Assembly: GCF_041296385.1 (NCBI RefSeq)
Contig: NC_091014.1
Coordinates: 9,089,578 to 9,153,577 of the forward strand
Source: Aphelocoma coerulescens
Taxonomy: Eukaryota > Chordata > Aves > Passeriformes > Corvidae
Reading direction: 5' to 3'
Length of the DNA: 64,000 bases
Shown piece by piece: positions 3,369-52,192 of the stretch (its first letter is position 1; the number at the start of each line of letters is the position of its first letter). Position numbers and translations under genes: made by a program. The notes under the pieces were generated by a model. It searched no databases. It had not been told where the DNA came from and was given only the letters and a program-made list of their open reading frames with translations.

Positions 3369-3411
3369 TCTCCTCCTTCCACAAGCTGGGCCAAAGGGGC
3401 TGTGGTGGGAG

Positions 3412-3883
3412 TGATGCCTTTTCCTGGTCTTAAAATCAAGAATCATACCCGGTTAGAAGGGGAAAAGGGATTTTACCTTGGTATTTATTTTAAGGATCCT
3501 TAGGTGCACACGTCCAGGTCATATGCATCGAGATGCGCCCCACCGAGTGTGTGTGTGTGTTTGTGTCCCCAACATTAGGTATAACATTATAGGTTTTACT
3601 AATTAGCATATCTATCCAAGATTCCCCAATGAGAGGCTCAAGTGAGCCCCCCTCCCCAAGGATCCTTCCACTGGATGGTTCTATCTTGGTTTACAGAATG
3701 TGTTCTGGAGAGGACCTTGGGGTCTGGGGCACACCGATCCCTAACTACGAAGCTTCTAAAATGTTGAGTCTCTTAGCTTGACAAACAAGTCCAAGAATGT
3801 AGGCAAAACCCACTAAGAATACAGAAGTTGTAAAAGGTATAATAGGGGTATAAAAGAAAAGGCAAAAAATCTTCATGGCATCA
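3412..3883 (-). mobile_element. Solo LTR of an endogenous retrovirus, unit 1
   Basis: A 472-bp element read on the minus strand begins TGATGCC and ends GGCATCA, a perfect 7-base terminal inverted repeat with the canonical TG...CA ends. It is flanked by the direct repeat GGAG (3408-3411 and 3884-3887). Unit 6 has the same flanks fused with a single GGAG at 45751-45754, which is the empty site, so the boundaries are firm. An AATAAA lies close to the 3' end. A 4-bp duplication fits class I (gammaretrovirus-like) elements better than ERVK (6 bp) or ERVL (5 bp); this class call is inference. It contains a short GT-rich tract. It lies on the same strand as the gene, about 1.1 kb beyond its stop codon. 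Confidence 0.9.
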
Positions 3884-4373
3884 GGAGCAGTGCCTGCCCA
3901 GCAGAGGAAGCAAAAGGCAGGGAGCTCAGCGAGCACAGTTCCCTCTCAGTGGAACAGCGAGTTCTGCTGTTGGCAGCGATCCTCCTCTGGGAGGTCCCTG
4001 CCTGCTCTCCTCACTCTTGCCTGCTTGTTCCTGGCCCCTCAGAGGACTTCCCTCTCTGACGTGGGCCACAGCAGCTTTCTTTCCCATGCTCTCAATGAGG
4101 AGGGGCAGGTTTTAAGCAGCACTGGGAGGATTAATTAATATTTGAGCTGTTTCAACCATCATGACTTCTGGTTGCATTCATGAGACAAAATTAATAGCCT
4201 GGCTCTAGAGTGTTGCAGAAATGCAATACCGAGATGTGACTGCTGGACACAATCACCGCTTGAGTCACTTTGTCATTTTTTCAGGTAGCTGCAATGGATG
4301 GACATTCTCTAAGAACCATTGGGTTAAATACAAAGAAGGACACTTTTCAGGCAATTTGAGAAACTTCTCTCCT

Positions 4374-4379
4374 TTTATT
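4374..4379 (-). terminator. Candidate poly(A) signal of the ITPRIPL1-like gene
   Basis: AATAAA on the minus strand about 620 bases beyond the stop codon. It is the first exact hexamer I found downstream of the CDS. It is retained in all six units (also near 12820, 21266, 29712, 38298 and 46237) although the bases around it differ between units 1-4 and 5-6. A 3' UTR of about 0.6 kb is plausible, but no transcript supports it here. Confidence 0.4.
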
Positions 4380-4996
4380 ATTTCTTCAAACATACATATG
4401 TAGATATTACTGAAGGGCAGCTATACCAGAGTAGCTCAACTGCCTAAACTAAGGGTAACTGGGCAATAATCTCACACTAACAATCCTAAAGGACCTCTTG
4501 ACGCGATGATGATGAAACTAGTTCCTATTAGGAAAACTTGGACTACCTATTCTCCTATGGTAAAGTGAGTTAAAACTATTATCTTCACTTCCACAGACTG
4601 AGATGAACTACATCTTTACAAAACCATTATAAAGTACATACAGGTCACTGAAAAAACTACACTAATTTTCTAACAGGCTCGGTTTTGGTCTTCCAGGTGT
4701 GCCAGGCAACCTCTCAGCATCAGTGTCTTCCGTGAGGATGTGCAGGTGGAGCCAGTTTCTGCCTTACAGACTTTGGGCAATATTGCAACAGCACCGTCAT
4801 GACTGGAAGGTGAAGGGCAAGGCAACGCAGAGATGTGTGTCTGCACGGTGAATCCATGTGCCGCAGCATCTTCCATCCATGGGAGCAGGAAAGCAGCTTC
4901 AGGATTGCCAGTGAAAAAAGCAAGAATGATGCCGTGCTCACGTGGCTGCCATCGGGTGTGAGCCCCCCCAGCACAGCTCTGTGCAGGGAATTCCTC

Positions 4997-7528
4997 TCAG
5001 AGGCTGGAGAGCAGCGTCCAGAGGCGGAATCGCAGCTGACCATAAGCTTGCATCGCCTCCGCGTGGGCGGCCGGATCTCGGGCCAGGTGCTCAAAGAGGT
5101 TGAGCGGCTCGACCGTTCGCATTGCCGGCGGCAAGCTGATCTCCGCAGGAAGCCTCTTGTTGCCCAGGACAAAGTGCTCCAGGCGTTTCAACTGCAGGCA
5201 GCGGCGCAGGTATGCCATGATGTCCCACAGCCGCCGCTCAAATTCCCTCCTGCGCCACTTGGACAGCGGTACGGTGGTCAGCACGTGCATGACCACAGTC
5301 TTCCAGGTCGAGCTGGAAAAACCTGTGCCCCTCAGGATGTAGGTGAAGAGCTGCAGGCATTTCAGGTGCAAGCTCTCACACGGCACCTGCCTGGCCACGT
5401 GCTGGAAGAATTTTGCCTCTGCCACAGCGTACGTCTCAGGCCACGCTGTGCTTGCGATGGACTCGGCCTTGGCGGGCCGGCTGCTCACAGAGCTGCTGGA
5501 GCCGCCTTTCTGGGCCTCTGTGGGCTGGCTGACCACAAAGATGTCGGAGTCCCCGTGGCGCACCCCAAACAGCATCTCCACCATCAGGCTCTCCTTGCCT
5601 TTGCTCAGCCGGAATTGGCAGGACCGGCTGCAGGGCTGAAACACCAAGTGCCACGAGTACGACTGAGGCAAATGCAGCCACGAGCATCTCACCAGCTGGT
5701 AGAACCAGTGGGAGGTTTTCTCCACGTCCAGGTAGGAGCCAGTGCAGAGTGTCTCTAGGAGGCTGGGCTTCTGCTTCCGCCGCAGCTCCTTCTGCGAGTG
5801 GTGCAGGAAGCACAACAGCTTCTCGCCCAGCTGCTCCCTCTCGCACGTGCACACCAGCTCCACACGGACGCAGAAGGTCCTTGCTGCCATCTGCCCGGCA
5901 CTGTTCAGCTCCAGGTGGAAGGCGTGTCCCGGCGGGGGATTCAGTGGGACCAGCATGCGGTACACCACATCCTGCTCACGGGGACTCCAACCCTCAAAGG
6001 CACTGCCCACCCCGATGGCTTCTTGAGGCACCGGGTAGAAACTATTGCTCACGCTGTCAGTAAAGACACGCGTGAAGCTCTCCATCAGCTCCGCTGCCAC
6101 TGAGCGACCTCTCTCCACGTCCTCGACAGGACACTGTATGCGATCCACTAAAAGGATCCCTCGCTTATTCCCAACGTCCCGGGTGTCTTCTTCCTCTTCA
6201 GTTCCACCACGGCTGCCTTTGTCCTTGCCATCACCGCGGCCTTCTTTTTCACTGGCAGCCACATTTCCACCTTCTTCTTCTTTTCCATCTTCATTCTTCT
6301 TGCCTTTCACATTCGCATCCCTGTTTTCCTGATCCTTCCCATTCCGATCACTGGTTCTGTGTTCACTGGAATGCCTGTCTTCCTTCACCTTCACATTGTT
6401 GCTGTCTCCTTCACTTGCTTTATCAGCACCTTCTTCAGTTGAAGCAACATTGCCGTGCTCCTCTCCATTTCCATCTTCATTTTTTTCTCCCTTCATATCG
6501 GCAGCACTGCCTTTCTCATCTTTGTCTCCATCATTGCCTTCTTCGTTTCCAACGTCATTCTTTTCTTCCTCAGTTGCAGCAAAACCACAATGGTCTACTG
6601 CATTCCCACCATCACTGCTGTCTTCCTGTCCTGTCCAATCACTGCTTCTTTGCTCACCGGCATCACTGCTTTCCTCCACCTTCAGATCCGCATTTTCTCC
6701 CTTTCCATCTCCCTCGTATTGACCTTCTTTTACATCATCATTGTTGCCGGCCTTCGTATTTGCATCAATGGTTTTTTCTTCATTTCCATCTCCTCCTTCT
6801 TTCTTTTCAGCATCATGGTCTGGTTCCACCTGCACATCCTTGTTTTCTCCTTCATTTGCTTCAGCATGGCCTTCTTTATCTCGAGCAACATTGCCAGGTT
6901 CTTCTTCATTTCCTTCAGCAGTGTTGCCTCCTGGCACATTCCCACCACTCCGTCCTTCATCTTTCTTTAAGTCACAGGCATCTTCATTCTTCACATTTTG
7001 GTCTTCCTTCACCTTCACATCTTCATTTCCTTCACTGGCATCATCTTCCTCTCCTTCATCTGCAGCCACAGGACTGCCTTCTCCTTCATTTTCATTACCG
7101 CTGTCATCTGCCTCCACGGTCATATTATGGTTTTCTCCATCTTCCTTTGAATCAATAGTGTCTTCTTGCTGTTCTTTTCCTCTCTCCTCTCCTAGGGTCT
7201 TGCAGGAGCTCTGGTCCTTGCCGCTGCTGTTGGCTTCGCGGCTCTTTCTCCTGCAGCTAAACCACAGGCCCAAGAGGAGCAGGAGTCCAGCAAGAGCCCA
7301 GAATGGCCACTGCTGCAGGGCACCAAAGAGCAGGGCTCCCCAGCCCTCGTCCTGCTGCTCCGGGGGCCCTTGCTCCAGCTCCTGCAGCAGCCGAGCCATC
7401 TCGCGGTCGAGCAGCTCCTCCCGCTCCTGCATTCGCCGGTGCGTGGCCTCATCCAGCCCATCCCCAGCTGGCTGGGGGTACTGGATCAGGCTTTGCACGA
7501 GCACGAAGAGCAATGACAATAAAGCCAT
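4997..7528 (-). CDS. ITPRIPL1-like: ITPRIP-like 1 protein, type A (copy 1, 843 aa)
   Basis: A single-exon coding sequence for a type I membrane protein of the ITPRIP family; family members are linked to IP3-receptor regulation, and human ITPRIPL1 has been reported as a CD3-epsilon ligand. Visible parts are: hydrophobic N-terminus (1-20, MALLSLLFVLVQSL, probable signal peptide); charged, heptad-like segment (25-60); membrane helix (about 74-90) followed by CRRK; very acidic linker rich in E, D, G, N and K (about 95-455); Mab-21-like nucleotidyltransferase-fold domain (about 456-843). The domain keeps GSAFEGW (508-514) and E518-x-D520, resembling the GS...ExD pattern of cGAS-type enzymes. The ATG at 7528 is chosen because a splice acceptor (CTCTTGCAG) lies just upstream and the family begins this way; the frame stays open upstream to 7990 only because intron and 5' UTR lack stops. 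The linker is far longer than in ordinary ITPRIPL1 proteins, which I recall as about 550 aa. Confidence 0.88.
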   Translation of the reverse strand: MALLSLLFVLVQSLIQYPQPAGDGLDEATHRRMQEREELLDREMARLLQELEQGPPEQQDEGWGALLFGALQQWPFWALAGLLLLLGLWFSCRRKSREANSSGKDQSSCKTLGEERGKEQQEDTIDSKEDGENHNMTVEADDSGNENEGEGSPVAADEGEEDDASEGNEDVKVKEDQNVKNEDACDLKKDEGRSGGNVPGGNTAEGNEEEPGNVARDKEGHAEANEGENKDVQVEPDHDAEKKEGGDGNEEKTIDANTKAGNNDDVKEGQYEGDGKGENADLKVEESSDAGEQRSSDWTGQEDSSDGGNAVDHCGFAATEEEKNDVGNEEGNDGDKDEKGSAADMKGEKNEDGNGEEHGNVASTEEGADKASEGDSNNVKVKEDRHSSEHRTSDRNGKDQENRDANVKGKKNEDGKEEEGGNVAASEKEGRGDGKDKGSRGGTEEEEDTRDVGNKRGILLVDRIQCPVEDVERGRSVAAELMESFTRVFTDSVSNSFYPVPQEAIGVGSAFEGWSPREQDVVYRMLVPLNPPPGHAFHLELNSAGQMAARTFCVRVELVCTCEREQLGEKLLCFLHHSQKELRRKQKPSLLETLCTGSYLDVEKTSHWFYQLVRCSWLHLPQSYSWHLVFQPCSRSCQFRLSKGKESLMVEMLFGVRHGDSDIFVVSQPTEAQKGGSSSSVSSRPAKAESIASTAWPETYAVAEAKFFQHVARQVPCESLHLKCLQLFTYILRGTGFSSSTWKTVVMHVLTTVPLSKWRRREFERRLWDIMAYLRRCLQLKRLEHFVLGNKRLPAEISLPPAMRTVEPLNLFEHLARDPAAHAEAMQAYGQLRFRLWTLLSSL

Positions 7529-7531
7529 GGT

Positions 7532-7809
7532 CTGCAAGAGGACACACAGAAGGGGTTCAGTAGGGCCGGAATGGAGGCAGCCGGTGCGGGGCAGGAGCCA
7601 CAGGGATGTGGCAGCAGGAAGGAGAGGGCCCCCGGCAGCTGGCAGGAGGCAAGGCCTGCACCGCTGCCCCAGCGAGCACCGAGCCGGAGCAAGGCGCTCC
7701 CGCCAGGGGCTGGGCCCTGCATGCAGGGACAGAACACACGCCCCGGCTGCCGGCGCTTCTGCCCCAGCCCTCCCCCAGCCCGGCCTCCCCACCACCTGTG
7801 TGCACTCAC
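7532..7809 (-). other. Intron in the 5' UTR, copy 1
   Basis: The minus-strand donor is GCG|GTGAGTGC at 7809 and the acceptor is a pyrimidine-rich CCTCTTGCAG ending at 7532, three bases before the ATG. The 278-bp intron is conserved in all six copies. This explains why the long frame continues upstream of the start codon without being protein. Equivalent introns are 15978-16255, 24424-24701, 32870-33147, 41281-41558 and 49220-49497. In copy 4 the second-last exon base before the donor is changed, leaving GTGAGT intact. Confidence 0.7.
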
Positions 7810-7897
7810 CGCTTGCCCAGGCTCTACTGGGGGCAACGGCAACCAACGGGGCCTTTTCTAGCTGCCCCCATTGTGACACGGCCCCTGTGGTGTCACA
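7810..7897 (-). promoter_or_regulatory. Non-coding first exon and proximal promoter with palindrome, copy 1
   Basis: Sequence upstream of the donor should hold the short non-coding first exon and the core promoter; it is GC-rich and has no clear TATA box. An 8-base inverted repeat TGTGACAC (7872-7879) and GTGTCACA (7890-7897), separated by 10 bases, is present unchanged in every copy: 16318-16343, 24764-24789, 33210-33235, 41621-41646 and 49560-49585. It could be a dimeric transcription-factor site, but no factor can be named from the sequence alone. The transcription start is not determined. Confidence 0.4.
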
Positions 7898-9815
7898 GGC
7901 CCCAGAGCGCATCACAGGCCAGCCCCACCCGCCATCCCCAGCCCGGGAACTCATCATGGCCCTGGGCACCCAGAGCCTCAACAGACACAAAGTGCAGACC
8001 CATCAGTCGTGAACCTGGGAACCCCAGGGCTTCCCTGTACAAAGCAGGCACAAGCACCCTCCCACACAAACCCTTGTCAAATACAAATATGGGTGACAGG
8101 ACCCCGATACGCTCTCTATATAGGTGCAGGCTTTTACTGATGATTGCAGGCAGATGTTCTTTACTATTAACAATAATATTTATTACTTTGGCCACAGCCT
8201 GTCATACAATACAGGCTAATTTTTAGTTACAGGTTTAGTGAGAAAGCAAGAATTAGAAGCTGCTTGAATGATGCACAGGAAGTTTAAACGTCATCCAATG
8301 TTAAGGCCTACCCTTCTTTTACACCAGCACTGTCCTGCCTCACACATCTTTTGTGAGATAAACCCTTTTGGGAGGGTTTCTCTCCTGAATTTAGGAACAC
8401 TTTCAAAGATCTGTTTATTGTTTGACAAAAGATCACCTACATCCAACTGATGGTTTGCACAGTAGCACAAAAAACCATCCAAACTACTTCTTACGCTAGA
8501 TGTGGCTGATCAATAGCCTGGCTGAGAAATGGACAAGCCACTGTAACAAGAAATACAAGTTTGGAAAAGGAAAAAGAAAAGTCCTCAAAACACAGAACTC
8601 CTGAAGCTTAGCTCGCTCCACTCTAATGTGCTCTCCCTCAATGCCACATAAAGATGTGCTCCTCCTGACACTTGCAGCAACTGGCTTCTCTCTTGCCATT
8701 CCGAGAGGAACTCTATTTTGTATAGGGATGTAGATGTGTCTGCATTTAGACGCCATCCTCAGTACAAACCTCCTCCCTTGCTTTTTTCTGACTGGAGATC
8801 CTTGCTACTGGATACGATGTTGCTGTTTATTGGGAAGAGTTTCTCTGATGCTGATCACAGCACAGCACAGCAGGAGCTCCCTTTTTGCTCTCTTGAGCTA
8901 CTCAAATTCCTCTTGGGTGATCTCTGAAATACTCTTTATCAGCTGAGGGCTGACAAAACACAGAATATCTGATTAATCACCCTTCTCTTCTCCAGCCATG
9001 ACACAAGAGCCGGGTGCACTCAGAAAACAGTTTTCTGAACCATCCTATATAATAACAATCAATTCCTTATAATTTCTGCCATCTAGATGAGGTCGCCATT
9101 GAACAGCTCCATGTCCCAAGTGGTACCCAGCAGGGAGGGAAGCAGAGGAAGACAGGATCACAGCAGCCACTGATCAGTCATTCACAGGCATCATCACAAA
9201 GAAAGACGAGAGAATCAGGAATTTCACAGGCTACTGTGTTTCAGCAGCGCATATCATCCTCCTCTTTTTAAATCTCTACTGATCACTACCTTCCAGTCCC
9301 TTCACAGTGCTCTCCTAATCCACAGGAGTAACTAAGATGCAGAATGTAAGGAAAAATTTCTTCTGACCTCCAGTCACCTGAGAATCAAGCAGGTAAGAGA
9401 AAATCTCCACGCTACTCTAAGGAAGATGTTTTATCAACTCACCTGTAGCTAAAGCTATTCAGAAAGCCCACACTACCAGACCCAGAGTGGTAAAGAGCCT
9501 ATTCATTTGCTGACCCTGGAGAAAAGGCAGCTTTAAACAAACTCTGCCACTCCCACTCTCTCTCCCTAGAACTTCAGGTTGAGACGCCTAGGACCAACTA
9601 AAGAAAAAAGCCATTTCATTCATGCCCTGCTCAAGCATTTCACACCCTCTTGTCCCTCCCAATCTACCAGCCAGTCAAACACAGAAAAAGCAAGAGACCC
9701 GTGGTAGGCTTCCAGTGGAAATACTGGCAAAATCTTCTTGGACTGCATTATTTGAAGGACCTGAGGTCAACTCACTGACCGTGAATGACTTTTACTGCTC
9801 CACTTAGCCTACCAG

Positions 9816-9850
9816 CTCAGCTCAGCTCAGCTCAGCTCAGCTCAGCTCAG
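9816..9850. repeat. (CTCAG)7 minisatellite, unit 1
   Basis: Seven perfect CTCAG pentamers in a non-coding part of the unit. The same site in the other units has 7, 7, 7, 9 and 6 repeats, so it mutates faster than its surroundings. Confidence 0.95.
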
Positions 9851-10808
9851 CAGCCTCCCAGCTACCTTTAGCTGCATAAGCACATGACCTGCAATCAGAA
9901 AGGCGTGAATCTTCCTTAGGAAGGAAACAGTCACGGGGAATGAAGAGTGGAGATTAGTCCACGCTCTGAGGAACAGGCAACAGCAACCAAACACTCTGGC
10001 AATAGCTTGTGTCTAGAAGCTCTCTACCTTCCAATCCACCTCAAGGCTTTGGGACTTGTGCTGACTTGCACAAAGGAACCCACTCCACCCTGCAGCAGTG
10101 GGCTCCTTCTTTCCAGCCTGGATGGAGGCATGTCCTGTATTTTGCAAGCATGTCCAGGTATTCAGAATGGAACATGCTGATCATGATTAGCACCTTAAGG
10201 CACGCAGCTCTTCCCTTCTCAAAGAATGCTTTGTGAAATGATAGGCAGTGCTATCCCCACCTTTCCAAACAAATTACCCTCCTTCTATTGCACTTGCCTT
10301 CAAAATACTGCCACTTCTTCATTTCAGACTATGCTTCCCTCAGAAGGATGCACAAAAGGTTAGAGTAGTTGCAAGCACCCGCACCTGCAATTTTCAACTA
10401 ACTGCGTCTTCAGAAAGGCTTCTGACAACAGGCCATTCTCTGGACATGAACACGGCAACGCTGAGGCAAGATAAATGACTTTGCTACATCTTACAGCCCA
10501 GATGTCTATGGCCAGAGAAGACACCAGCAGGTTGTCCTGATACTTCTGCTCATCCTCTCTGGTAGCAGCTGTACAGAGAACAACACAGTTTTAAATTCTA
10601 ACTCAGTTTGTGCTCCACTGATGAACGGAAACAGAAGTAAGGGAAAGGGACTTTTCTTCGGAGCAAATGTGAGTTTTCTGTGGATTTCAGTGTCCAGGAT
10701 TTAAACCGCTAAGGGGTCTTCTTCAGTAAATCCAAAGGACAATTGGCTACAGAAACCTGTATCTGATACTACTGATAAGCGCTGACAGTTCTCTGGCTGT
10801 GACTCATT

Positions 10809-11183
10809 TCATTCAAACCTGCTTTCTCCGAATGCACATCTGACAGCAGGACTTGCTCCATTCAGCCTGCAGCAGTTCCACAGGAAAGATGTTGTGAAAT
10901 TGGCCACACATCTTCGCAACACTTCCACTTCAACGTTTTTCCCACTATGTTCAAATGTATTTCTCAGCTTCCTAAGGAGTGCAGTGTCCGTAACAAAGGA
11001 GGCGAGAGTTTCATGCAGAAATGGAGAGACCTTGAACCGCAGTGGCCGGAACAACTCTGGTGTAATACCAGTGCCAGATGGCATGGGCATGAAAAGCACA
11101 CTCACATCAATACGAACAGGCTTAGGAGAGACACAGAGCCCGCAGGGTGAGGTATTCCCAAAGAAGGGGAATTGACAGTGCAA
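10809..11183 (-). pseudogene. Conserved 124-codon open frame, possible exon relic (unit 1)
   Basis: An open minus-strand frame with protein-like composition (it includes PKPVRIDVSVLFMPMPSG and FVTDTALLRKLRNTFE). The frame stays open upstream of its first ATG to about 11231, where an AAACAG could be a splice acceptor. It is intact at 19255-19629, 27701-28075, 36290-36664 and 44707-45081; the array ends before this position in unit 6. I do not recognise the family. Between units I see at least five amino-acid changes (R to S, R to L, N to I, V to F, T to M) and only one silent change, which argues against present purifying selection. It may be a duplicated exon of a neighbouring gene, or chance. 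Confidence 0.22.
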
Positions 11184-11857
11184 AGGAGAGTTAATACCAA
11201 CCAGGTGCTCAGTTACTTTATCAGAGCTCCCCTGTTTTCAAGGCCTGAAAGAACAGCTCAGTGCCAGAAAGACATCCAGATCATTTGGCCATGCTTGCTC
11301 TTATGGAACACTGTTTTCAATTTCCATCCTAGTGGGGTTGCATACTACTGACCAGTTAAAACCAGCACCTGAGCTACACAACAGTGTTTCAGTGGCAACA
11401 CTGGACAGCTGTAGGTTCTGCCCTTCCCCTCTCCCAGCATGCTCCTCAGACACACAGCACACTTGCACATGCACCAAAACTCACAGCCACACCCACAGTT
11501 TGACCACCTGCAATAGTTTTGGCCCTGGCCAATCTAGCCCTGGGTGGATTGTGCAACAAGAAGCCATGGGGGCCGTGCTTCTCCCCGAATCCAAGCATCG
11601 CCCCAGAGGCCACACAAGCTGTGCGGTCAGGCCGTAAGGCTCAATGGCACACAGAGATCAAGTCCTACCCACTGAGAGCACACGTCCTTGTGGAAGGGAC
11701 TGATGAGAGACTGGAGCTGGGGCAAGGGACAGGGCAGGTCTCTGCAGCTGGGGGCAGAGGAGAGGGGAACAGAGTGGGTGGGTGTGTTTGGGGAGAAGGG
11801 AGCAAGGAGGGTGTTCTCCTCCTTCCACAAGCTGGGCCAAAGGGGCTGTGGTGGGAG

Positions 11858-13442: not shown

Positions 13443-15974
13443 TCAGAGGCTGGAGAGCAGCGTCCAGAGGCGGAATCGCAGCTGACCATAAGCTTGCATC
13501 GCCTCCGCGTGGGCGGCCGGATCTCGGGCCAGGTGCTCAAAGAGGTTGAGCGGCTCGACCGTTCGCATTGCCGGCGGCAAGCTGATCTCCGCAGGAAGCC
13601 TCTTGTTGCCCAGGACAAAGTGCTCCAGGCGTTTCAACTGCAGGCAGCGGCGCAGGTATGCCATGATGTCCCACAGCCGCCGCTCAAATTCCCTCCTGCG
13701 CCACTTGGACAGCGGTACGGTGGTCAGCACGTGCATGACCACAGTCTTCCAGGTCGAGCTGGAAAAACCTGTGCCCCTCAGGATGTAGGTGAAGAGCTGC
13801 AGGCATTTCAGGTGCAAGCTCTCACACGGCACCTGCCTGGCCACGTGCTGGAAGAATTTTGCCTCTGCCACAGCGTACGTCTCAGGCCACGCTGTGCTTG
13901 CGATGGACTCGGCCTTGGCGGGCCGGCTGCTCACAGAGCTGCTGGAGCCGCCTTTCTGGGCCTCTGTGGGCTGGCTGACCACAAAGATGTCGGAGTCCCC
14001 GTGGCGCACCCCAAACAGCATCTCCACCATCAGGCTCTCCTTGCCTTTGCTCAGCCGGAATTGGCAGGACCGGCTGCAGGGCTGAAACACCAAGTGCCAC
14101 GAGTACGACTGAGGCAAATGCAGCCACGAGCATCTCACCAGCTGGTAGAACCAGTGGGAGGTTTTCTCCACGTCCAGGTAGGAGCCAGTGCAGAGTGTCT
14201 CTAGGAGGCTGGGCTTCTGCTTCCGCCGCAGCTCCTTCTGCGAGTGGTGCAGGAAGCACAACAGCTTCTCGCCCAGCTGCTCCCTCTCGCACGTGCACAC
14301 CAGCTCCACACGGACGCAGAAGGTCCTTGCTGCCATCTGCCCGGCACTGTTCAGCTCCAGGTGGAAGGCGTGTCCCGGCGGGGGATTCAGTGGGACCAGC
14401 ATGCGGTACACCACATCCTGCTCACGGGGACTCCAACCCTCAAAGGCACTGCCCACCCCGATGGCTTCTTGAGGCACCGGGTAGAAACTATTGCTCACGC
14501 TGTCAGTAAAGACACGCGTGAAGCTCTCCATCAGCTCCGCTGCCACTGAGCGACCTCTCTCCACGTCCTCGACAGGACACTGTATGCGATCCACTAAAAG
14601 GATCCCTCGCTTATTCCCAACGTCCCGGGTGTCTTCTTCCTCTTCAGTTCCACCACGGCTGCCTTTGTCCTTGCCATCACCGCGGCCTTCTTTTTCACTG
14701 GCAGCCACATTTCCACCTTCTTCTTCTTTTCCATCTTCATTCTTCTTGCCTTTCACATTCGCATCCCTGTTTTCCTGATCCTTCCCATTCCGATCACTGG
14801 TTCTGTGTTCACTGGAATGCCTGTCTTCCTTCACCTTCACATTGTTGCTGTCTCCTTCACTTGCTTTATCAGCACCTTCTTCAGTTGAAGCAACATTGCC
14901 GTGCTCCTCTCCATTTCCATCTTCATTTTTTTCTCCCTTCATATCGGCAGCACTGCCTTTCTCATCTTTGTCTCCATCATTGCCTTCTTCGTTTCCAACG
15001 TCATTCTTTTCTTCCTCAGTTGCAGCAAAACCACAATGGTCTACTGCATTCCCACCATCACTGCTGTCTTCCTGTCCTGTCCAATCACTGCTTCTTTGCT
15101 CACCGGCATCACTGCTTTCCTCCACCTTCAGATCCGCATTTTCTCCCTTTCCATCTCCCTCGTATTGACCTTCTTTTACATCATCATTGTTGCCGGCCTT
15201 CGTATTTGCATCAATGGTTTTTTCTTCATTTCCATCTCCTCCTTCTTTCTTTTCAGCATCATGGTCTGGTTCCACCTGCACATCCTTGTTTTCTCCTTCA
15301 TTTGCTTCAGCATGGCCTTCTTTATCTCGAGCAACATTGCCAGGTTCTTCTTCATTTCCTTCAGCAGTGTTGCCTCCTGGCACATTCCCACCACTCCGTC
15401 CTTCATCTTTCTTTAAGTCACAGGCATCTTCATTCTTCACATTTTGGTCTTCCTTCACCTTCACATCTTCATTTCCTTCACTGGCATCATCTTCCTCTCC
15501 TTCATCTGCAGCCACAGGACTGCCTTCTCCTTCATTTTCATTACCGCTGTCATCTGCCTCCACGGTCATATTATGGTTTTCTCCATCTTCCTTTGAATCA
15601 ATAGTGTCTTCTTGCTGTTCTTTTCCTCTCTCCTCTCCTAGGGTCTTGCAGGAGCTCTGGTCCTTGCCGCTGCTGTTGGCTTCGCGGCTCTTTCTCCTGC
15701 AGCTAAACCACAGGCCCAAGAGGAGCAGGAGTCCAGCAAGAGCCCAGAATGGCCACTGCTGCAGGGCACCAAAGAGCAGGGCTCCCCAGCCCTCGTCCTG
15801 CTGCTCCGGGGGCCCTTGCTCCAGCTCCTGCAGCAGCCGAGCCATCTCGCGGTCGAGCAGCTCCTCCCGCTCCTGCATTCGCCGGTGCGTGGCCTCATCC
15901 AGCCCATCCCCAGCTGGCTGGGGGTACTGGATCAGGCTTTGCACGAGCACGAAGAGCAATGACAATAAAGCCAT
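13443..15974 (-). CDS. ITPRIPL1-like: ITPRIP-like 1 protein, type A (copy 2, 843 aa)
   Basis: An intact gene whose predicted protein is identical to copy 1: signal peptide, membrane helix at 74-90, long acidic linker with two copies of the roughly 62-residue module, and Mab-21-like domain ending LLSSL. The start is the ATG directly behind the conserved splice acceptor. The one base change near the gene (16277) lies upstream of the coding sequence, in the non-coding exon. No frameshift or premature stop is present. Confidence 0.88.
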   Translation of the reverse strand: MALLSLLFVLVQSLIQYPQPAGDGLDEATHRRMQEREELLDREMARLLQELEQGPPEQQDEGWGALLFGALQQWPFWALAGLLLLLGLWFSCRRKSREANSSGKDQSSCKTLGEERGKEQQEDTIDSKEDGENHNMTVEADDSGNENEGEGSPVAADEGEEDDASEGNEDVKVKEDQNVKNEDACDLKKDEGRSGGNVPGGNTAEGNEEEPGNVARDKEGHAEANEGENKDVQVEPDHDAEKKEGGDGNEEKTIDANTKAGNNDDVKEGQYEGDGKGENADLKVEESSDAGEQRSSDWTGQEDSSDGGNAVDHCGFAATEEEKNDVGNEEGNDGDKDEKGSAADMKGEKNEDGNGEEHGNVASTEEGADKASEGDSNNVKVKEDRHSSEHRTSDRNGKDQENRDANVKGKKNEDGKEEEGGNVAASEKEGRGDGKDKGSRGGTEEEEDTRDVGNKRGILLVDRIQCPVEDVERGRSVAAELMESFTRVFTDSVSNSFYPVPQEAIGVGSAFEGWSPREQDVVYRMLVPLNPPPGHAFHLELNSAGQMAARTFCVRVELVCTCEREQLGEKLLCFLHHSQKELRRKQKPSLLETLCTGSYLDVEKTSHWFYQLVRCSWLHLPQSYSWHLVFQPCSRSCQFRLSKGKESLMVEMLFGVRHGDSDIFVVSQPTEAQKGGSSSSVSSRPAKAESIASTAWPETYAVAEAKFFQHVARQVPCESLHLKCLQLFTYILRGTGFSSSTWKTVVMHVLTTVPLSKWRRREFERRLWDIMAYLRRCLQLKRLEHFVLGNKRLPAEISLPPAMRTVEPLNLFEHLARDPAAHAEAMQAYGQLRFRLWTLLSSL

Positions 15975-26707: not shown

Positions 26708-26742
26708 CTCAGCTCAGCTCAGCTCAGCTCAGCTCAGCTCAG
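26708..26742. repeat. (CTCAG)7 minisatellite, unit 3
   Basis: Seven CTCAG pentamers at the equivalent site. Confidence 0.95.
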
Positions 26743-35296: not shown

Positions 35297-35331
35297 CTCA
35301 GCTCAGCTCAGCTCAGCTCAGCTCAGCTCAG
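35297..35331. repeat. (CTCAG)7 minisatellite, unit 4
   Basis: Seven CTCAG pentamers. Just to the left the unit has an extra CACT repeat compared with units 1-3 (CTCACTCACTGACTG). Confidence 0.95.
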
Positions 35332-41277: not shown

Positions 41278-41831
41278 GGTCTGCAAGAGGACACACAGAA
41301 GGGGTTCAGTAGGGCCGGAATGGAGGCAGCCGGTGCGGGGCAGGAGCCACAGGGATGTGGCAGCAGGAAGGAGAGGGCCCCCGGCAGCTGGCAGGAGGCA
41401 AGGCCTGCACCGCTGCCCCAGCGAGCACCGAGCCGGAGCAAGGCGCTCCCGCCAGGGGCTGGGCCCTGCATGCAGGGACAGAACACACGCCCCGGCTGCC
41501 GGCGCTTCTGCCCCAGCCCTCCCCCAGCCCGGCCTCCCCACCACCTGTGTGCACTCACCGCTTGCCCAGGCTCTACTGGGGGCAACGGCAACCAACGGGG
41601 CCTTTTCTAGCTGCCCCCATTGTGACACGGCCCCTGTGGTGTCACAGGCCCCAGAGCGCATCACAGGCCAGCCCCACCCGCCATCCCCAGCCCGGGAACT
41701 CATCATGGCCCTGGGCACCCAGAGCCTCAACAGACACAAAGTGCAGACCCATCAGTCGTGAACCTGGGAACCCCAGGGCTTCCCTGTACAAAGCAGGCAC
41801 AAGCACCCTCCCACACAAACCCTTGTCAAAT

Positions 41832-42371
41832 ATAAATATGGGTGACATGATCCATGGATGCTCTTGGTATGCAGGTGTAGGCTTTTATTTTTTTATTCAT
41901 GGTGGAACTTTTTACTACAAATATTTATATTTATTGCTGTGTTGGTACATCTCCCCTCCCCCCTCCTTTCCAGGCTGTAGTGTGATCTGAGGAACTCTTA
42001 TTAAGCCTTGGCCTTGAAAACACCACCTGGGCTCAGCTCTTTCTTTTATTTGGCGATCTCAAGCACACTTGTTTGTGACATTTACTTTGGAGGCAGCACA
42101 TCACATAGGCTAATATTTATTTACTGATTTAGTGAGAAATAAGGAAATTCATGCTGCTTATGTGATGCACAGGAAGTTGTAATGTCATCCAGTCTTATGG
42201 CCTACCCTTTGTTTACACCAGCACTGTCCCACCTCACACATCTTTTGTGAAGACAAGGATGTCAGGGTTTCTCTCCTGAATTAGGAACACTTTCAAAGAT
42301 CTGTTTATTGTCTGACAAACGATCACACACAACCAACTTAGGCTTTGCAAAGCAGGATAAAAATACTCAGG
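41832..42371. other. Type B upstream segment, unit 5
   Basis: Nearly identical to 33421-33960. Here it accompanies a type B gene, whereas in unit 4 it accompanies a type A gene. No coding sequence seen. Confidence 0.75.
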
Positions 42372-43703
42372 CCCATCCAAACTACTTCTTACGCTAGATG
42401 TGGCTGATCAATAGCCCGGCTGAGAAATGGACAAGCCACTGTAACAAGAAATACAAGTTTGGAAAAGGAAAAAGAAAAGTCCTCAAAACACAGAACTCCT
42501 GAAGCTTAGCTCACTCCACTCTAATGTGCTCTCCCTCAATGCCACATAAAGATGTGCTCCTCCTGACACTTGCAGCAACTGGCTTCTCTCTTGCCATTCC
42601 GAGAGGAACTCTATTTTGTATAGGGATGTAGACGTGTCTGCATTTAGACGCCATCCTCAGTACAAACCTCCTCCCTTGCTTTTTTCTGACTGGAGATCCT
42701 TGCTACTGGCTACGATGGTGCTGTTTATTGGGAAGAGTTTCTCTGATGCTGATCACAGCACAGCACAGCAGGAGCTCCCTTTTTGCTCCCTTGAGCTACT
42801 CAAATTCCTCTTGGGTGATCTCTGAAATACTCTTTATCAGCTGAGGGCTGACAAAACACAGAATGTCTGATTAATCACCCTTCTCTTCTCCAGCCATGAC
42901 ACAAGAGCTGGGTGCATTCAGAAAACAGTTTTCTGAACCATCCTATATAATAACAATCAATTCCTTATAATTTCTGCCATCTAGATGAGGTCGCCATTGA
43001 ACAGCTCCATGTCCCAAGTGGTACCCAGCAGGGAGGGAAGCAGAGGAAGACAGGATCACAGCAGCCACTGATCAGGCATCATCACAAAGAAAGACGAGAG
43101 AGTCAGGAATTTCACAGGCTACTGTGTTTCAGCAGCGCATATCATCCTCCTCTTTTTAAATCTCTACTGATCACTACCTTCCAGTCCCTTCACAGTGCTC
43201 TCCTAATCCACAGGAGTAACTAAGATGCAGAATGTAAGGAAAAATTTCTTCTGACCTCCAGTCACCTGAGAATCAAGCAGGTAAGAGAAAATCTCCACGC
43301 TACTCTAAGGAAGGTGTTTCATAAACTCGCCTGTAGCTAAAGCTATTCAGAAAGCCCACACTACCAGACCCAGAGTGGTAAAGAGCCTATTCATTTGCTG
43401 ACCCTGGAGAAAAGGCAGCTTTAAACAAACTCTGCCACTCCCACTCTCTCTCCCTAGAACTTCAGGTTGAGACGCCTAGGACCAACTAAAGAAAAAAGCC
43501 ATTTCATTCATGCCCTGCTCAAGCATTTCACACCCTCTTGTCCCTCCCAATCTACCAGCCAGTCAAACACAGAAAAAGCAAGAGACCCGTGGTAGGCTTC
43601 CAGTGGAAATACTGGCAAAATCTTCTTGGACTGCATTATTTGAAGGACCTGAGGTCAACTCACTGACCGTGAATGACTTTTACTGCTCCACTTAGCCTAC
43701 CAG

Positions 43704-43748
43704 CTCAGCTCAGCTCAGCTCAGCTCAGCTCAGCTCAGCTCAGCTCAG
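43704..43748. repeat. (CTCAG)9 minisatellite, unit 5
   Basis: Nine CTCAG pentamers, the longest allele in the array. Confidence 0.95.
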
Positions 43749-45750
43749 CAGCCTCCCAGCTACCTTTAGCTGCATAAGCACATGACCTGCAATCAGAAAG
43801 GCGTGAATCTTCCTTAGGAAGGAAACAGTCACGGGGAATGAAGAGTGGAGATTAGTCCACACTCTGAGGAACAGGCAACACCAACCAAACACTCTGGCAA
43901 TAGCCTGTGTCTAGAAGCTCTCTACCTTCCAATCCACCTCAAGGCTTTGGGACTTGTGCTGACTTGCACAAAGGAACCCACTCCACCCTGCAGCAGTGGG
44001 CTCCTTCTTTCCAGCCTGGATGGAGGCATGTCCTGTATTTTGCAAGCATGTCCAGGTGTTCAGAATGGAACATGCTGATCATGATTAGCACCTTAAGGCA
44101 CGCAGCTCTTCCCTTCTCAAAGAATGCTTTGTGAAATGATAGGCAGTGCTATCCCCACCTTTCCAAACAAATTACCCTCCTTCTATTGCACTTGCCTTCA
44201 AAATACTGCCACTTCTTCATTTCAGACTATGCTTCCCTCAGAAGGATGCACAAAAGGTTAAAGTAGTTGCAAGCACCTGCACCTGCAATTTTCAACTAAC
44301 TGCGTCTTCAGAAAGGCTTCTGACAACAGGCCATTCTCTGGACATGAACACGGCAACGCTGAGGCAAGATAAATGACTTTGCTACATCTTACAGCCCAGA
44401 TGTCTATGGCCAGAGAAGACACCAGCAGGTTGTCCTGATACTTCTGCTCATCCTCTCTGGTAGCAGCTGTACAGAGAACAACACAGTTTTAAATTCTAAC
44501 TCAGTTTGTGCTCCACTGATGAAGGAAAACAGAAGTAAGGGAAAGAGACTTTGCTTCGGAGCAAATGTGAGTTTTCTGTGGATTTCAGTGTCCAGGATTT
44601 AAACCGCTAAGGGGTCTTCTTCAGTAAATCCAAAGGACAATTGGCTACAGAAACCTGTACCTGATACTACTGATAAGCGCTGACAGTTCTCTGGCTGTGA
44701 CTCATTTCATTCAAACCTGCTTTCTCCGAATGCACATCTGACAGCAGGACTTGCTCCATTCAGCCTGCAGCAGTTCCACAGGAAAGATGTTGTGAAATTG
44801 GCCACACATCTTCGCAACACTTCCACTTCAAAGATTTTCCCACTATGTTCAAATGTATTTCTCAGCTTCCTAAGGAGTGCAGTGTCCATAACAAAGGAGG
44901 CGAGAGTTTCATGCAGAAATGGAGAGACCTTGAACCGCAGTGGCAGGAACAACTCTGGTGTAATACCAGTGCCAGATGGCATGGGCATAAAAAGCACACT
45001 CACATCAATACGAACAGGCTTAGGAGAGACACAGAGCCCGCAGGGTGAGGTATTCCCAAAGAAGGGGAATTGACAGTGCAAAGGAGAGTTAATACCAACC
45101 AGGTGCTCAGTTACTTTATCAGAGCTCCCCTGTTTTCAAGGCCTGAAAGAACAGCTCAGTGCCAGAAAGGCATCCAGATCCTTTGGCTATGCTTGCTCTT
45201 ATGGAACACTGTTTTCAATTTCCATCCTAGTGGGGTTGCATACTACTGACCAGTTAAAACCAGCACCTGAGCTACACAACAGTGTTTCAGTGGCAACACT
45301 GGACAGCTGTAGGTTCTGCCCTTCCCCTCTCCCAGCATGCTCCTCAGACACACAGCACACTTGCACATGCACCAAAACTCACAGCCACACCCACAGTTTG
45401 ACCACCTGCAATAGTTTTGGCCCTGGCCAATCTAGCCCTGGGTGGATTGTGCAACAAGAAGCCATGGGGGCCGTGCTTCTCCCCGAATCCAAGCATCGCT
45501 CCGGAGGCCACACAAGCTGTGCGGTCAGGCCGTAAGGCTCAATGTCACACAGAGATCAAGTCCTACCCACTGAGAGCACACGTCCTTGTGGAAGGGGCTG
45601 ATGAGCACTGGAGCTGGGGCAAGGGACAGGGCAGGTCTCTGCAGCTGGGGGCAGAGGAGAGGGGAACAAAGTAGGCGTGTGTGTTTGGGGAGAAGGGAGC
45701 AAGGAGGGTGTTCTCCTCCTTCCACAAGCTGGGCCAAAGGGGCTGTGGTG

Positions 45751-46867: not shown

Positions 46868-49216
46868 TCAGTGGCTGGAGAGCAGCGTCCAGAGGCGGAA
46901 TCGCAGCTGACCGTAAGCTTGCATCGCCTCCGCGTGGGCGGCCGGATCTCGGGCCAGGTGCTCAAAGAGGTTGAGCGGCTCGACCGTTCGCATTGCCGGC
47001 GGCAAGCTGATCTCCGCAGGAAGCCTCTTGTTGCCCAGGACAAAGTGCTCCAGGCGTTTCAACTGCAGGCAGCGGCGCAGGTATGCCATGATGTCCCACA
47101 GCCGCCGCTCAAATTCCCTCCTGCGCCACTTGGACAGCGGTACGGTGGTCAGCACGTGCATGACCACAGTCTTCCAGGTCGAGCTGGAAAAACCTGTGCC
47201 CCTCAGGATGTAGGTGAAGAGCTGCAGGCATTTCAGGTGCAAGCTCTCACACGGCACCTGCCTGGCCACGTGCTGGAAGAATTTTGCCTCTGCCACAGCG
47301 TACGTCTCAGGCCACGCTGTGCTTGCGATGGACTCGGCCTTGGCGGGCCGGCTGCTCACAGAGCTGCTGGAGCCGCCTTTCTGGGCCTCTGTGGGCTGGC
47401 TGACCACAAAGATGTCGGAGTCCCCGTGGCGCACCCCAAACAGCATCTCCACCATCAGGCTCTCCTTGCCTTTGCTCAGCCGGAATTGGCAGGACCGGCT
47501 GCAGGGCTGAAACACCAAGTGCCACGAGTACGACTGAGGCAAATGCAGCCACGAGCATCTCACCAGCTTGTAGAACCAGTGGGAGGTTTTCTCCACGTCC
47601 AGGTAGGAGCCAGTGCAGAGTGTCTCTAGGAGGCTGGGCTTCTGCTTCCGCCGCAGCTCCTTCTGCGAGTGGTGCAGGAAGCACAACAGCTTCTCGCCCA
47701 GCTGCTCCCTCTCGCACGTGCACACCAGCTCCACACGGACGCAGAAGGTCCTTGCTGCCATCTGCCCGGCACTGTTCAGCTCCAGGTGGAAGGCGTGTCC
47801 CGGCGGGGGATTCAGTGGGACCAGCATGCGGTACACCACATCCTGCTCACGGGGACTCCAACCCTCAAAGGCACTGCCCACCCCGATGGCTTCTTGAGGC
47901 ACCGGGTAGAAACTATTGCTCACGCTGTCAGTAAAGACACGCGTGAAGCTCTCCATCAGCTCCGCTGCCACTGAGCGACCTCTCTCCACGTCCTCGACAG
48001 GACACTGTATGCGATCCACTAAAAGGATCCCTCGCTTATTCCCAACGTCCCGGGTGTCTTCTTTCTCTTCAATTCCACCACGGCTGCCTTTGTCCTTGCC
48101 ATCACCACGGCCTTCTTTTTCACTGGCAGCCACATTACCTTGTTCTCCTTCTTTTGCATCTTCATTCTTCTCTCCATTCGCATTCGCATCACCCTGTTTC
48201 TCATCTCTGTTTGCAACATTGGTCTCTTCATTTCCAAGGCGAGTGTTTTTTTCCTCAGATGCAGCAAACCCACTGTGGTCTACTGCATTCCCACCATCAC
48301 TGTTGTCTTCCTGCCCAATCCAATCACTGCTTTGTTGTTCACTGGCATCACTGCTTTCCTTCACCTTCACATCTGCTTTTTCTTCCTTTCCATCTACCTC
48401 GTATACTCCTTCATTTACATCATCCCTGTTGCCTGCCTTCATATGCACATCATTGGCTTTTTCTTCACTTCCATCTCCTTCTTCCTTTCCAGCATCCTTG
48501 TCTGGCTCCACCTTCACATCCTTGTTTTCTCCTTCATTTACTTCATCTAGGTCTTCCACACCTCCAGTAACATTGCCAGGTTCTTCTTCATTTGCTTCAG
48601 CAGTATTGTCTCCTGGCATATTCCCATCACTCCAGCCTTCATCTTTCTTTGCATCATGGCCATCGTCACTTTTAACATCACTTTCTTTCTTCAACTTCAC
48701 ATCTTCATCTTGTTCATTGGCATCATCGTCGTCTCCTTCGTTTGCAGCCACAGGACTGCCTTCTCCTTCATTTCCGCTGCCACTGTCATCTGCCTCCACA
48801 GTCACATCAATGTTTTCTCCGTCTCCCTCAGAATCCAAATTGTCTTCTTCCTCTTCTTTTTCCTTCTCCTCTCCCAAGGTCTTGCAGGAGCTCTGGTCCT
48901 TGCCGCTGCTGTTGGTTTCGCTGGCTTCAGGACTCCTCCTGCAGCTAAACCACAGGCCCAAGAGGAGCAGGAGTCCAGCAAGAGCCCAGAATGGCCACTG
49001 CTGCAGGGCACCAAAGAGCAGGGCTCCCCAGCCCTCGTCCTGCTGCTCCGGGGGCCCTTGCTCCAGCTCCTGCAGCAGCCGAGCCATCTCGCGGTCGAGC
49101 AGCTCCTCCCGCTCCTGCATTCGCCGGTGCGTGGCCTCATCCAGCCCATCCCCAGCTGGCTGGGGGTACTGGATCAGGCTCTGCACGAGCACGAAGAGCA
49201 ATGACAATAAAGCCAT
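46868..49216 (-). CDS. ITPRIPL1-like: ITPRIP-like 1 protein, type B (copy 6, 782 aa)
   Basis: An intact type B copy. The linker appears identical to copy 5 at the protein level. It has the common S in the serine-rich loop where copy 5 has F, and a private Q to K change in the Mab-21-like domain (WFYKLVRC). The final residue is H. The start is the ATG directly behind the CTCTTGCAG acceptor. Its promoter-proximal palindrome is intact and its first-exon variant is the C form found in copies 2 and 3. Confidence 0.87.
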   Translation of the reverse strand: MALLSLLFVLVQSLIQYPQPAGDGLDEATHRRMQEREELLDREMARLLQELEQGPPEQQDEGWGALLFGALQQWPFWALAGLLLLLGLWFSCRRSPEASETNSSGKDQSSCKTLGEEKEKEEEEDNLDSEGDGENIDVTVEADDSGSGNEGEGSPVAANEGDDDDANEQDEDVKLKKESDVKSDDGHDAKKDEGWSDGNMPGDNTAEANEEEPGNVTGGVEDLDEVNEGENKDVKVEPDKDAGKEEGDGSEEKANDVHMKAGNRDDVNEGVYEVDGKEEKADVKVKESSDASEQQSSDWIGQEDNSDGGNAVDHSGFAASEEKNTRLGNEETNVANRDEKQGDANANGEKNEDAKEGEQGNVAASEKEGRGDGKDKGSRGGIEEKEDTRDVGNKRGILLVDRIQCPVEDVERGRSVAAELMESFTRVFTDSVSNSFYPVPQEAIGVGSAFEGWSPREQDVVYRMLVPLNPPPGHAFHLELNSAGQMAARTFCVRVELVCTCEREQLGEKLLCFLHHSQKELRRKQKPSLLETLCTGSYLDVEKTSHWFYKLVRCSWLHLPQSYSWHLVFQPCSRSCQFRLSKGKESLMVEMLFGVRHGDSDIFVVSQPTEAQKGGSSSSVSSRPAKAESIASTAWPETYAVAEAKFFQHVARQVPCESLHLKCLQLFTYILRGTGFSSSTWKTVVMHVLTTVPLSKWRRREFERRLWDIMAYLRRCLQLKRLEHFVLGNKRLPAEISLPPAMRTVEPLNLFEHLARDPAAHAEAMQAYGQLRFRLWTLLSSH

Positions 49217-51498
49217 GGTCTGCAAGAGGACACACAGAAGGGGTTCAGTAGGGCCGGAATGGAGGCAGCCGGTGCGGGGCAGGAGCCACAGGGATGTGGC
49301 AGCAGGAAGGAGAGGGCCCCCGGCAGCTGGCAGGAGGCAAGGCCTGCACCGCTGCCCCAGCGAGCACCGAGCCGGAGCAAGGCGCTCCCGCCAGGGGCTG
49401 GGCCCTGCGTGCAGGGACAGAACACACGCCCCGGCTGCCGGCGCTTCTGCCCCAGCCCTCCCCCAGCCCGGCCTCCCCACCACCTGTGTGCACTCACCGC
49501 TTGCCCAGGCTCTACTGGCGGCAACGGCAACCAACGGGGCCTTTTCTAGCTGCCCCCATTGTGACACGGCCCCTGTGGTGTCACAAGCCCCAGAGCGCAT
49601 CACAGGCCAGCCCCACCCGCCATCCCCAGCCCGGGAACTCATCATGGCCCTGGGCACCCAGAGCCTCAACAGACACAAAGTGCAGACCCATCAGTCGTGA
49701 ACCTGGGAACCCCAGGGCTTCCCTGTACAAAGCAGGCACAAGCACCCTCCCACACAAACCCTTGTCAAATATAAATGTGGGTGACAGGACCCCGATACGC
49801 TCTCTATAAAGGTGCAGGCTTTTACTGATGATTGCAGGCAGATGTTCTTTACTATTAACAATAATATTTATTACTTTGGCCACAGCCTGTCATACAGGCT
49901 AATTTTTAGTTACAGGTTTAGTGAGAAAGCAAGAATTAGAGGCTGCTTGAATGATGCACAGGAAGTTTAAACGTCATCCAATGTTAAGGCCTACCCTTCT
50001 TTTACACCAGCACTGTCCTGCCTCACACATCTTTTGTGAGATAAACCCTTTTGGGAGGGTTTCTCTCCTGAATTTAGGAACACTTTCAAAGATCTGTTTA
50101 TTGTTTGACAAAAGATCACCTACATCCAACTGATGGTTTGCACAGTAGCACAAAAAACCATCCAAACTACTTCTTACGCTAGATGTGGCTGATCAATAGC
50201 CTGGCTGAGAAATGGACAAGCCACTGTAACAAGAAATACAAGTTTGGAAAAGGAAAAAGAAAAGTCCTCAAAACACAGAACTCCTGAAGCTTAGATCACT
50301 CCACTCTAATGTGCTCTCCCTCAATGCCACATAAAGATGTGCTCCTCCTGACACTTGCAGCAACTGGCTTCTCTCTTGCCATTCCAAGAGGAACTCTATT
50401 TTGTATAGGGATGTAGATGTGTCTGCATTTAGACGCCATCCTCAGTACAAACCTCCTCCCTTGCTTTTTTCTGACTGGAGATCCTTGCTACTGGCTACGA
50501 TGGTGCTGTTTATTGGGAAGAGTTTCTCTGATGCTGATCACAGCACAGCACAGCAGGAGCTCCCTTTTTGCTCTCTTGAGCTACTCAAATTCCTCTTGGG
50601 TGATCTCTGAAATACTCTTTATCAGCTGAGGGCTGACAAAACACAGAATATCTGATTAATCACCCTTCTCTTCTCCAGCCATGACACAAGAGCCGGGTGC
50701 ACTCAGAAAACAGTTTTCTGAACCATCCTATATAATAACAATCAATTCCTTATAATTTCTGCCATCTAGATGAGGTCGCCATTGAACAGCTCCATGTCCC
50801 AAGTGGTACCCAGCAGGGAGGGAAGCAGAGGAAGACAGGATCACAGCAGCCACTGATCAGTCATTCACAGGCAGCGCCACAAAGAAAGACGAGAGAGTCA
50901 GGAATTTCACAGGCTACTCTGTTTCAGCAGCCTATGTCACCCTGCTCCTTTTAAATGTCTTCTGATGACAAGCTTCATGTCCAAGCACAGTGCTCTCCTA
51001 ATCCACAGGAGTAACTAAGATGCAGAATGTAAGGAAAAATTTCTTCTGACCTCCAGTCACCTGAGAATCAAGCAGGTAAGAGAAAATCTCCACGCTACTC
51101 TAAGGAAGATGTTTTATCAACTCACCTGTAGCTAAAGCTATTCAGAAAGCCCACACTACCAGACCCAGAGTGGTAAAGAGCCTATTCATTTGCTGACCCT
51201 GGAGAAAAGGCAGCTTTAAACAAACTCTGCCACTCCCACTCTCTCTCCCTAGAACTTCAGGTTGAGATGCCTAGGACCAACTAAAGAAAAAAGCCATTTC
51301 ATTCATGCCCTGCTCAAGCATTTCACACCCTCTTGTCCCTCCCAATCTACCAGCCAGTCAAACACAGAAAAAGCAAGAGACCCGTGGTAGGCTTCCAGTG
51401 GAAATACTGGCAAAATCTTCTTGGACTGCATTATTTGAAGGACCTGAGGTCAACTCACTGACCGTGAATGACTTTTACTGCTCCACTTAGCCTACCAG

Positions 51499-51528
51499 CT
51501 CAGCTCAGCTCAGCTCAGCTCAGCTCAG
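51499..51528. repeat. (CTCAG)6 minisatellite, unit 6
   Basis: Six CTCAG pentamers, the shortest allele in the array. Confidence 0.95.
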
Positions 51529-52192
51529 CAGCCTCCCAGCTACCTTTAGCTGCATAAGCACACGACCTGCAATCAGAAAGGCGTGAATCTTCCTTAGGAA
51601 GGAAACAGTCACGGGGAATGAAGAGTGGAGATTAGTCCACACTCTGAGGAACAGGCAACACCAACCAAACACTCTGGCAATAGCTTGTGTCTAGAAACTC
51701 TCTACCTTCCAATCCACCTCAAGGCTTTGGGACTTGTGCTGACTTGCACAAAGGAACCCACTCCACCCTGCAGCAGTGGGCTCCTTCTTTCCAGCCTGGA
51801 TGGAGGCATGTCCTGTATTTTGCAAGCATGTCCAGGTGTTCAGAATGGAACATGCTGATCATGATTAGCACCTTAAGGCACGCAGCTCTTCCCTTCTCAA
51901 AGAATGCTTTGTGAAATGATAGGCAGTGCTATCCCCACCTTTCCAAACAAATTACCCTCCTTCTATTGCACTTGCCTTCAAAATACTGCCACTTCTTCAT
52001 TTCAGACTATGCTTCCCTCAGAAGGATGCACAAAAGGTTAGAGTAGTTGCAAGCACCCGCACCTGCAATTTTCAACTAACTGCGTCTTCAGAAAGGCTTC
52101 TGACAACAGGCCATTCTCTGGACATGAACACGGCAACGCTGAGTCAAGATAAATGACTTTGCTACATCTTACAGCCCAGATGTCTATGGCCA

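Follow-up and report, generated by a model that had tools for sequence, protein, structure and literature searches.

A tandem array of ITPRIPL1-like genes in a songbird, probably shaped by unequal crossing-over and gene conversion

In mammals, ITPRIPL1 (CD3L1) is reported to be strongly expressed in testis, to suppress T-cell receptor (TCR)-CD3 signaling and to act as a CD3-epsilon/NRP2 ligand, and it is studied as an immune checkpoint (PMC13365830). In the zebra finch, passages of another report place duplicated ITPRIP-like genes in cluster 8 of chromosome Z, within PAK3L ampliconic arrays (PMC13060935). The subject of the present work is a set of six ITPRIPL1-like genes in a 64,000-base stretch of DNA (no N) from contig NC_091014.1 of the jay Aphelocoma coerulescens, referred to here as the window. 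These genes form a tandem array of a songbird ITPRIPL1-like subfamily that has probably been shaped by unequal crossing-over and gene conversion, and whose products would, by analogy, be regulators varying in their tether.

Comparison with the described systems shows both likenesses and differences. With the zebra finch cluster the jay genes share the amplification of ITPRIP-like genes in a songbird; the zebra finch genes differ in being embedded in PAK3L arrays. With mammalian ITPRIPL1 the likeness is by bird database names, which many homologs of the window proteins bear; unlike the mammalian gene, the window genes are multicopy and encode an acidic linker of 292-353 amino acids (aa). Apart from the ITPRIP-like mention in the passages of PMC13060935, long-linker, amplified songbird ITPRIPL1 was not found as a subject in the open-licence literature, and a text search of a songbird comparative-genomics paper (PMC4377847) found no occurrence of ITPRIP.

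A homology search with the Mab-21 region as query returned 492 proteins at E<=0.001, of which 120 were listed; the statements on database relatives concern these. Many are named ITPRIPL1 and the rest are mostly uncharacterized, and every named source is a bird, three entries (P0103, P0106 and P0117) being unnamed. The nearest are from Aphelocoma coerulescens (99%), Cyanocitta cristata (94-98%) and Corvus (90-94%), followed by other songbird families at about 72-88% and by a distant group, from songbirds and other birds, at about 47-61%. Because two of the matched clusters, of 39 and 42 sequences, are headed by Cyanocitta proteins and a third, of 13, by one from Corvus hawaiiensis, multicopy relatives are already in the databases and amplification is not unique to the window. 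These clusters fit the bird part of the first-pass annotation, which had given one such gene per haploid set for ordinary genomes, with multicopy forms in birds.

The multicopy songbird entries labeled “uncharacterized” or “ITPRIPL1” (from Cyanocitta, Corvus, Hirundo, Passer, Vidua, Parus and others), compared as proteins only, belong to the same subfamily, with Mab-21 regions about 72-99% identical, and most of those measured have a long acidic linker. Among 32 proteins in which linker length was measured, 16 members of the songbird subfamily have 255-365 aa, two sparrows differ in having about 61, and 12 of the distant group have 18-109. The value of 387 for a 17th subfamily member, P0021, is inflated by an N-terminal extension that misplaces the transmembrane (TM) segment, and P0054, read as 193, is a model that lacks a clear TM segment.

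Array layout and mosaic structure

The six genes lie in tandem on the minus strand between 3369 and 52196, and each frame is open from MALLSLL to its stop codon. Each unit carries one of two linker types (A or B) and one of two promoter-side types (1 or 2).

3369..11814, minus strand: unit 1, 8,446 bp, linker A, promoter type 1; main coding exon 4997..7528, minus strand, 843 aa
11815..20260, minus strand: unit 2, 8,446 bp, linker A, promoter type 1; main coding exon 13443..15974, minus strand, 843 aa, same as unit 1
20261..28706, minus strand: unit 3, 8,446 bp, linker A, promoter type 1; main coding exon 21889..24420, minus strand, 843 aa, same as unit 1
28707..37295, minus strand: unit 4, linker A, promoter type 2; main coding exon 30335..32866, minus strand, 843 aa, L843H
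37296..45711, minus strand: unit 5, linker B, promoter type 2, end placed by eye; main coding exon 38929..41277, minus strand, 782 aa
45712..52196, minus strand: unit 6, linker B, promoter type 1, truncated, without the long terminal repeat (LTR)-like insert, start placed by eye; main coding exon 46868..49216, minus strand, 782 aa

In a self-comparison, 3369-24990 aligns with 11815-33436 at 99.95% identity over 21,622 bp, with 10 mismatches and no gaps, which is far beyond chance; because this alignment is gap-free, units 1-3 measure 8,446 bp each. Only three sites vary among these units over their whole length, and their coding sequences (CDS) are identical, that of unit 4 differing from them by 2 nucleotides and that of unit 5 from that of unit 6 by 5 nucleotides and 2 aa. 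The spacing from CDS to CDS is 8446, 8446, 8446, 8594 and 7939 bp along the array, which ends at about 52196 with the shortened unit 6, starting near 45712 and lacking the solo-LTR-like insert. The earlier description of six intact tandem genes without stop or frameshift, the first three equal in length and identical in protein, is thus confirmed. The unit size of 8.4-8.6 kb that it gave holds for the first four spacings and fails for the last, at the truncated unit 6, and its term “amplified” is apt for the six copies in the assembly, beyond which the support does not reach.

The units differ from one another in blocks. In 100-bp steps along unit 1, units 1 and 5 show 0-2 differences per 100 bp over 4884-6183 and none over 7284-8083; divergence is 8-24% over 6184-7283, the linker, and 12-27% over 4384-4783, in the 3' flank.

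6184..7283, minus strand, unit 1 coordinates: linker block divergent between types A and B
3984..4811, minus strand, unit 1 coordinates: A/B-divergent 3' flank block, with the linker's unit pattern except at 10 sites particular to unit 5
8084..8519, minus strand, unit 1 coordinates: promoter-side block, type 1 in units 1-3 and 6, type 2 in units 4 and 5

Linker type A is found in units 1-4 and type B in units 5-6, and sites of the promoter-side types continue thinly to 10380. All four linker/promoter combinations occur: A1 (units 1-3), A2 (unit 4), B2 (unit 5) and B1 (unit 6). In a site-pattern test on 403 sites between 3890 and 10515, the 335 sites with linker or promoter patterns fall into 2 runs; the minimum in 10,000 shuffles was 106.

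A partial assembly artefact would account for some of this layout if units 1-3 had been multiplied from one or two real copies, or were haplotypes set in tandem, and unit 4 were a chimeric A/B join. The presence of only three variable sites among units 1-3 agrees with such an origin. A report on the Florida scrub-jay, which would bear on the window if the two share an assembly, gives a mean HiFi read length of 14.55 kb, little above the 8.4-kb unit, and describes a chimeric Z/W contig made by hifiasm (PMC11631490). However, in several blocks units 4, 5 and 6 clearly differ among themselves and from units 1-3, the LTR-like insert is missing from unit 6 alone, and other bird records contain related sequences in clusters of 39, 42 and 13. 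An artefact of this kind is judged unlikely.

The contrast between blocks extends to the coding sequence. Between units 1 and 5, the N-terminus and TM segment carry no changes and the Mab-21 region 2 synonymous and 2 nonsynonymous ones, and the linker carries 34 synonymous changes, 108 nonsynonymous changes and 65 gap columns (synonymous divergence, dS, 0.23; nonsynonymous divergence, dN, 0.17). Synonymous changes thus number 2/340 in the coding ends versus 34/172 in the linker (Fisher p 2e-15). The array is a recombination mosaic, in which near-identical coding ends, synonymous sites included, are combined with linker and promoter blocks of two types. The suggestion of “diversification” in the first-pass annotation fits the linker, 3' flank and promoter blocks but not the two coding ends, which are homogenized.

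Could the uniform ends be due to purifying selection, with an unconstrained linker and no conversion at all? A linker dN/dS of about 0.7 and the many Mab-21 columns that are invariant or nearly so among 62 bird sequences are what such selection might leave. It is contradicted by the synonymous sites of the ends, which are near-identical too, so that a rescue would need constraint at the nucleotide level over both ends; moreover, the Mab-21 tree described below unites both linker types of one lineage, and promoter type assorts independently of linker. This explanation is highly improbable.

The intactness of the array had also been taken to suggest function. The intact frames of units 1-3 say little on this point because these copies are too young to have decayed. 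Better evidence for a retained coding function comes from linkers A and B, which differ by about 142 substitutions at dN/dS 0.69-0.72 (0.72 for unit 1 vs 5) and by coding indels of 186, 3 and 6 bp, all three multiples of 3, as against 5/22 in the noncoding flanks of the same two units.

Age of the linker types and processes behind the mosaic

The two linker types appear to be old. Over the first part of the linker (residues 94-300), type A is 98% identical to Cyanocitta P0006 and 93% to C. hawaiiensis, and the window's own A and B are 67.5% identical; over the Mab-21 region window A and B are 99.5-99.7% identical, and the window and Corvus 93-95%. As linkers A and B are 69-72% identical and either is 56-64% identical to members from five other songbird families, we infer that the A/B split is older than the Corvus-jay split and younger than the split from those five families.

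Trees built from 19 of 20 aligned rows, leaving out Corvus moneduloides P0015, which is without most of the linker, conflict in the same way. In the linker tree, type A forms one clade (100/100), and a grouping of window A and B with Aphelocoma P0004 is rejected by the approximately unbiased (AU) test (indicative p-AU 0.0024). In the Mab-21 tree a grouping of type A is rejected (indicative p-AU 2e-73), and window A and B group with P0004 (92/84). On these alignments, the linker types are common to the window, Cyanocitta and Corvus and would, because they are so shared, be older than the split of the three, and Mab-21 domains group largely by lineage. The conflict between linker and domain trees provides a tractable case of partial concerted evolution, and the array lets one ask which parts of a gene are homogenized and whether tether variation is selected.

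Unequal crossing-over together with gene conversion is the best fit to these patterns. Unequal crossing-over would change copy number and have produced units 1-3 most recently; the membrane and Mab-21 modules would be overwritten by gene conversion or by repeated crossovers, which would also shuffle blocks. The linkers, already about 16% diverged and separated by a 186-bp indel, would escape overwriting; they may simply resist conversion, and selection for variety is possible. Extra dosage could be a by-product or a weak advantage.

Balancing or diversifying selection could likewise keep both linkers, with tether length and charge tuning the protein in the manner of a receptor family. The persistence of the linker types across the window, Cyanocitta and Corvus is consistent with this possibility, as are the frame-preserving coding indels of units 1 and 5 and the linkers of P0008 and P0016, which by appearance are B-like in their first part and A-like in their second. 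Yet dN/dS remains below 1, divergence alone can block conversion and so keep old types apart, and the noncoding 3' flank and promoter-side blocks behave likewise, and selection of this kind seems improbable. Still more doubtful is a cassette system, in which concerted evolution would keep the membrane and cGAS-fold modules uniform and selection would keep old tether and promoter cassettes that recombine freely. If true, it would amount to a combinatorial repertoire of immune-related regulator variants in corvids.

Several points weigh against the account by crossing-over and conversion, and against the role proposed for its products. Copy number and unit order, and with them the description as a multicopy set, rest on the given assembly; a chimeric assembly could account for part of the mosaic; the genes are known here from genomic DNA alone; and the functional interpretation rests on the mammalian analogy. 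The groups submitted to the AU test were named after quick trees had been seen, which makes the p-values only indicative, and the support of 92/84 for the window clade in the Mab-21 tree lies below the star threshold. Cyanocitta P0012 is an exception to the grouping by lineage, its Mab-21 region being nearer to Corvus (95-96%) than to other Cyanocitta copies (93%). P0012 is a B-type member on a 248,660-base contig, perhaps from a separate array.

Protein architecture and possible function

The unit 1 protein would consist of a signal-like N-terminus, recognized by eye, with a short ectodomain (residues 1-73), a putative TM segment at about 74-92, placed by a hydropathy scan in which the 19-mer starting at residue 74 has the highest mean (1.71), an acidic linker at about 94-455 and a Mab-21/cGAS-fold domain at about 456-843. 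In Pfam, only the C-terminal Mab-21 HhH domain (PF20266) passes, with 25.4 and 25.6 bits against a cut-off of 24.1 for the proteins of units 1 and 6. The predicted fold of the Mab-21 domain matches MiD51 and cGAS, with low confidence at residues 1-26, 70-80, 105-110 and 226-258 of the model, the second of these stretches spanning the first two acidic positions of the motif discussed below; a search of solved structures by sequence gave weak matches only (best E 0.67). ITPRIPL1-like identity is supported by homology and predicted fold, the name coming from the labels of bird database entries. The earlier view of the products as Mab-21-like and ITPRIPL1-like agrees with the homology, PF20266 and the predicted fold. 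Each product is expected to be a type I membrane protein whose cytosolic domain has the predicted cGAS/MiD51 fold.

The motif of cGAS-like receptors (cGLR), as given in PMC9980059, is h[QT]GS [X8-20] [DE]h[DE]h [X50-90] h[DE]h. The window copies retain GS and, at the three acidic positions, E, D and E but differ from the full motif, reading G-V-G-S, then E-Q-D-V after 8 residues and V-E-M after about 128 (the motif allows 50-90). They have V where the motif calls for Q/T before GS, and the residue that separates the first acid from the second is Q, not a hydrophobic one. The fold alignment of 62 rows, which used 61 of 121 fetched sequences, has G and S each in 60 rows, the first acid (E/D) in 49, the second (D/E) in 58 and the third in all 62. 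With the motif incomplete, the Mab-21 domain may or may not synthesize nucleotide second messengers. Between the second and third acidic positions lies a CxC-x10-C-xx-H pattern (unit 1 residues 560-576; domain C121, C123, C134 and H137), whose invariance in 62/62 rows suggests a metal site.

In each copy the cGAS/MiD51-fold domain would sit in the cytosol on a long tether, acidic and probably disordered, with a short ectodomain outside. If mammalian ITPRIPL1 is a guide, the copies are likely to act at the cell surface as regulators in immunity or testis, differing in the tether and not in the fold.

Gene models, insert and flanks

Longer ATG frames (986 and 925 aa) probably start too far upstream and were set aside as proteins because a splice acceptor, TCCTCTTGCAG/ACCATG, lies directly before MALLSLL and several homologs start at MALL. 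A candidate upstream exon was identified in unit 1:

7929..8003, minus strand: candidate 5' exon, from its ATG, with donor CGG/GTGGGG, in frame with MALL via the acceptor before 7531

The same arrangement is found in 6/6 units, and the Cyanocitta model P0012 has nearly the same N-terminus as the product of this exon; the start codon used is either the MALL ATG or that of exon 1. All six units also contain a 117-bp in-frame GC...AG stretch (7373-7257 and equivalents) whose removal would delete the TM segment. Of five Cyanocitta models examined, four (P0006, P0007, P0008 and P0012) have exactly this junction, hinting at a soluble isoform or at an annotation habit. An AATAAA lies at stop+618 in units 1-4. 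In the B units, a 563-aa antisense frame is open opposite the acidic linker (40070-41761 and 48009-49700, plus strand), probably a by-product of GAN-rich codons.

The flanks of the array (358-3368 and 52197-64000) are AT-richer, and no gene was recognized in them, their open reading frames having been scanned in part only; a Pfam scan of 10 of the 38 listed right-flank frames gave none above cut-off. One Parus major family member carries the label semaphorin-3D, which prompted a search of the flanks with 19 short peptide patterns meant to mark semaphorin-3 exons; it gave no match. A location on chromosome 1A is a guess from this label only. No Rfam family passed its gathering threshold anywhere in the window, and none matched in 52000-64000 at E 0.1.

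Two repeated elements accompany the genes:

3412..3883, no strand assigned: solo-LTR-like insert of 472 bp, TGATGCC...GGCATCA, with GGAG on both sides; ends and flanking repeat placed by eye
9813-9851, 18259-18297, 26705-26743, 35294-35332, 43701-43749 and 51496-51529: CAGCT repeats, one per unit

The insert is present in units 1-5, with 467 of 472 bp identical in all five. That A and B units carry it in the same form is a further sign that sequence has spread recently along the array. An inverted relative with 98% identity, cut by the window start, lies at 1-357. The CAGCT pentanucleotide repeat is longest in unit 5 (9.8 copies) and shortest in unit 6 (6.8), with 7.8 copies in each of units 1-4.
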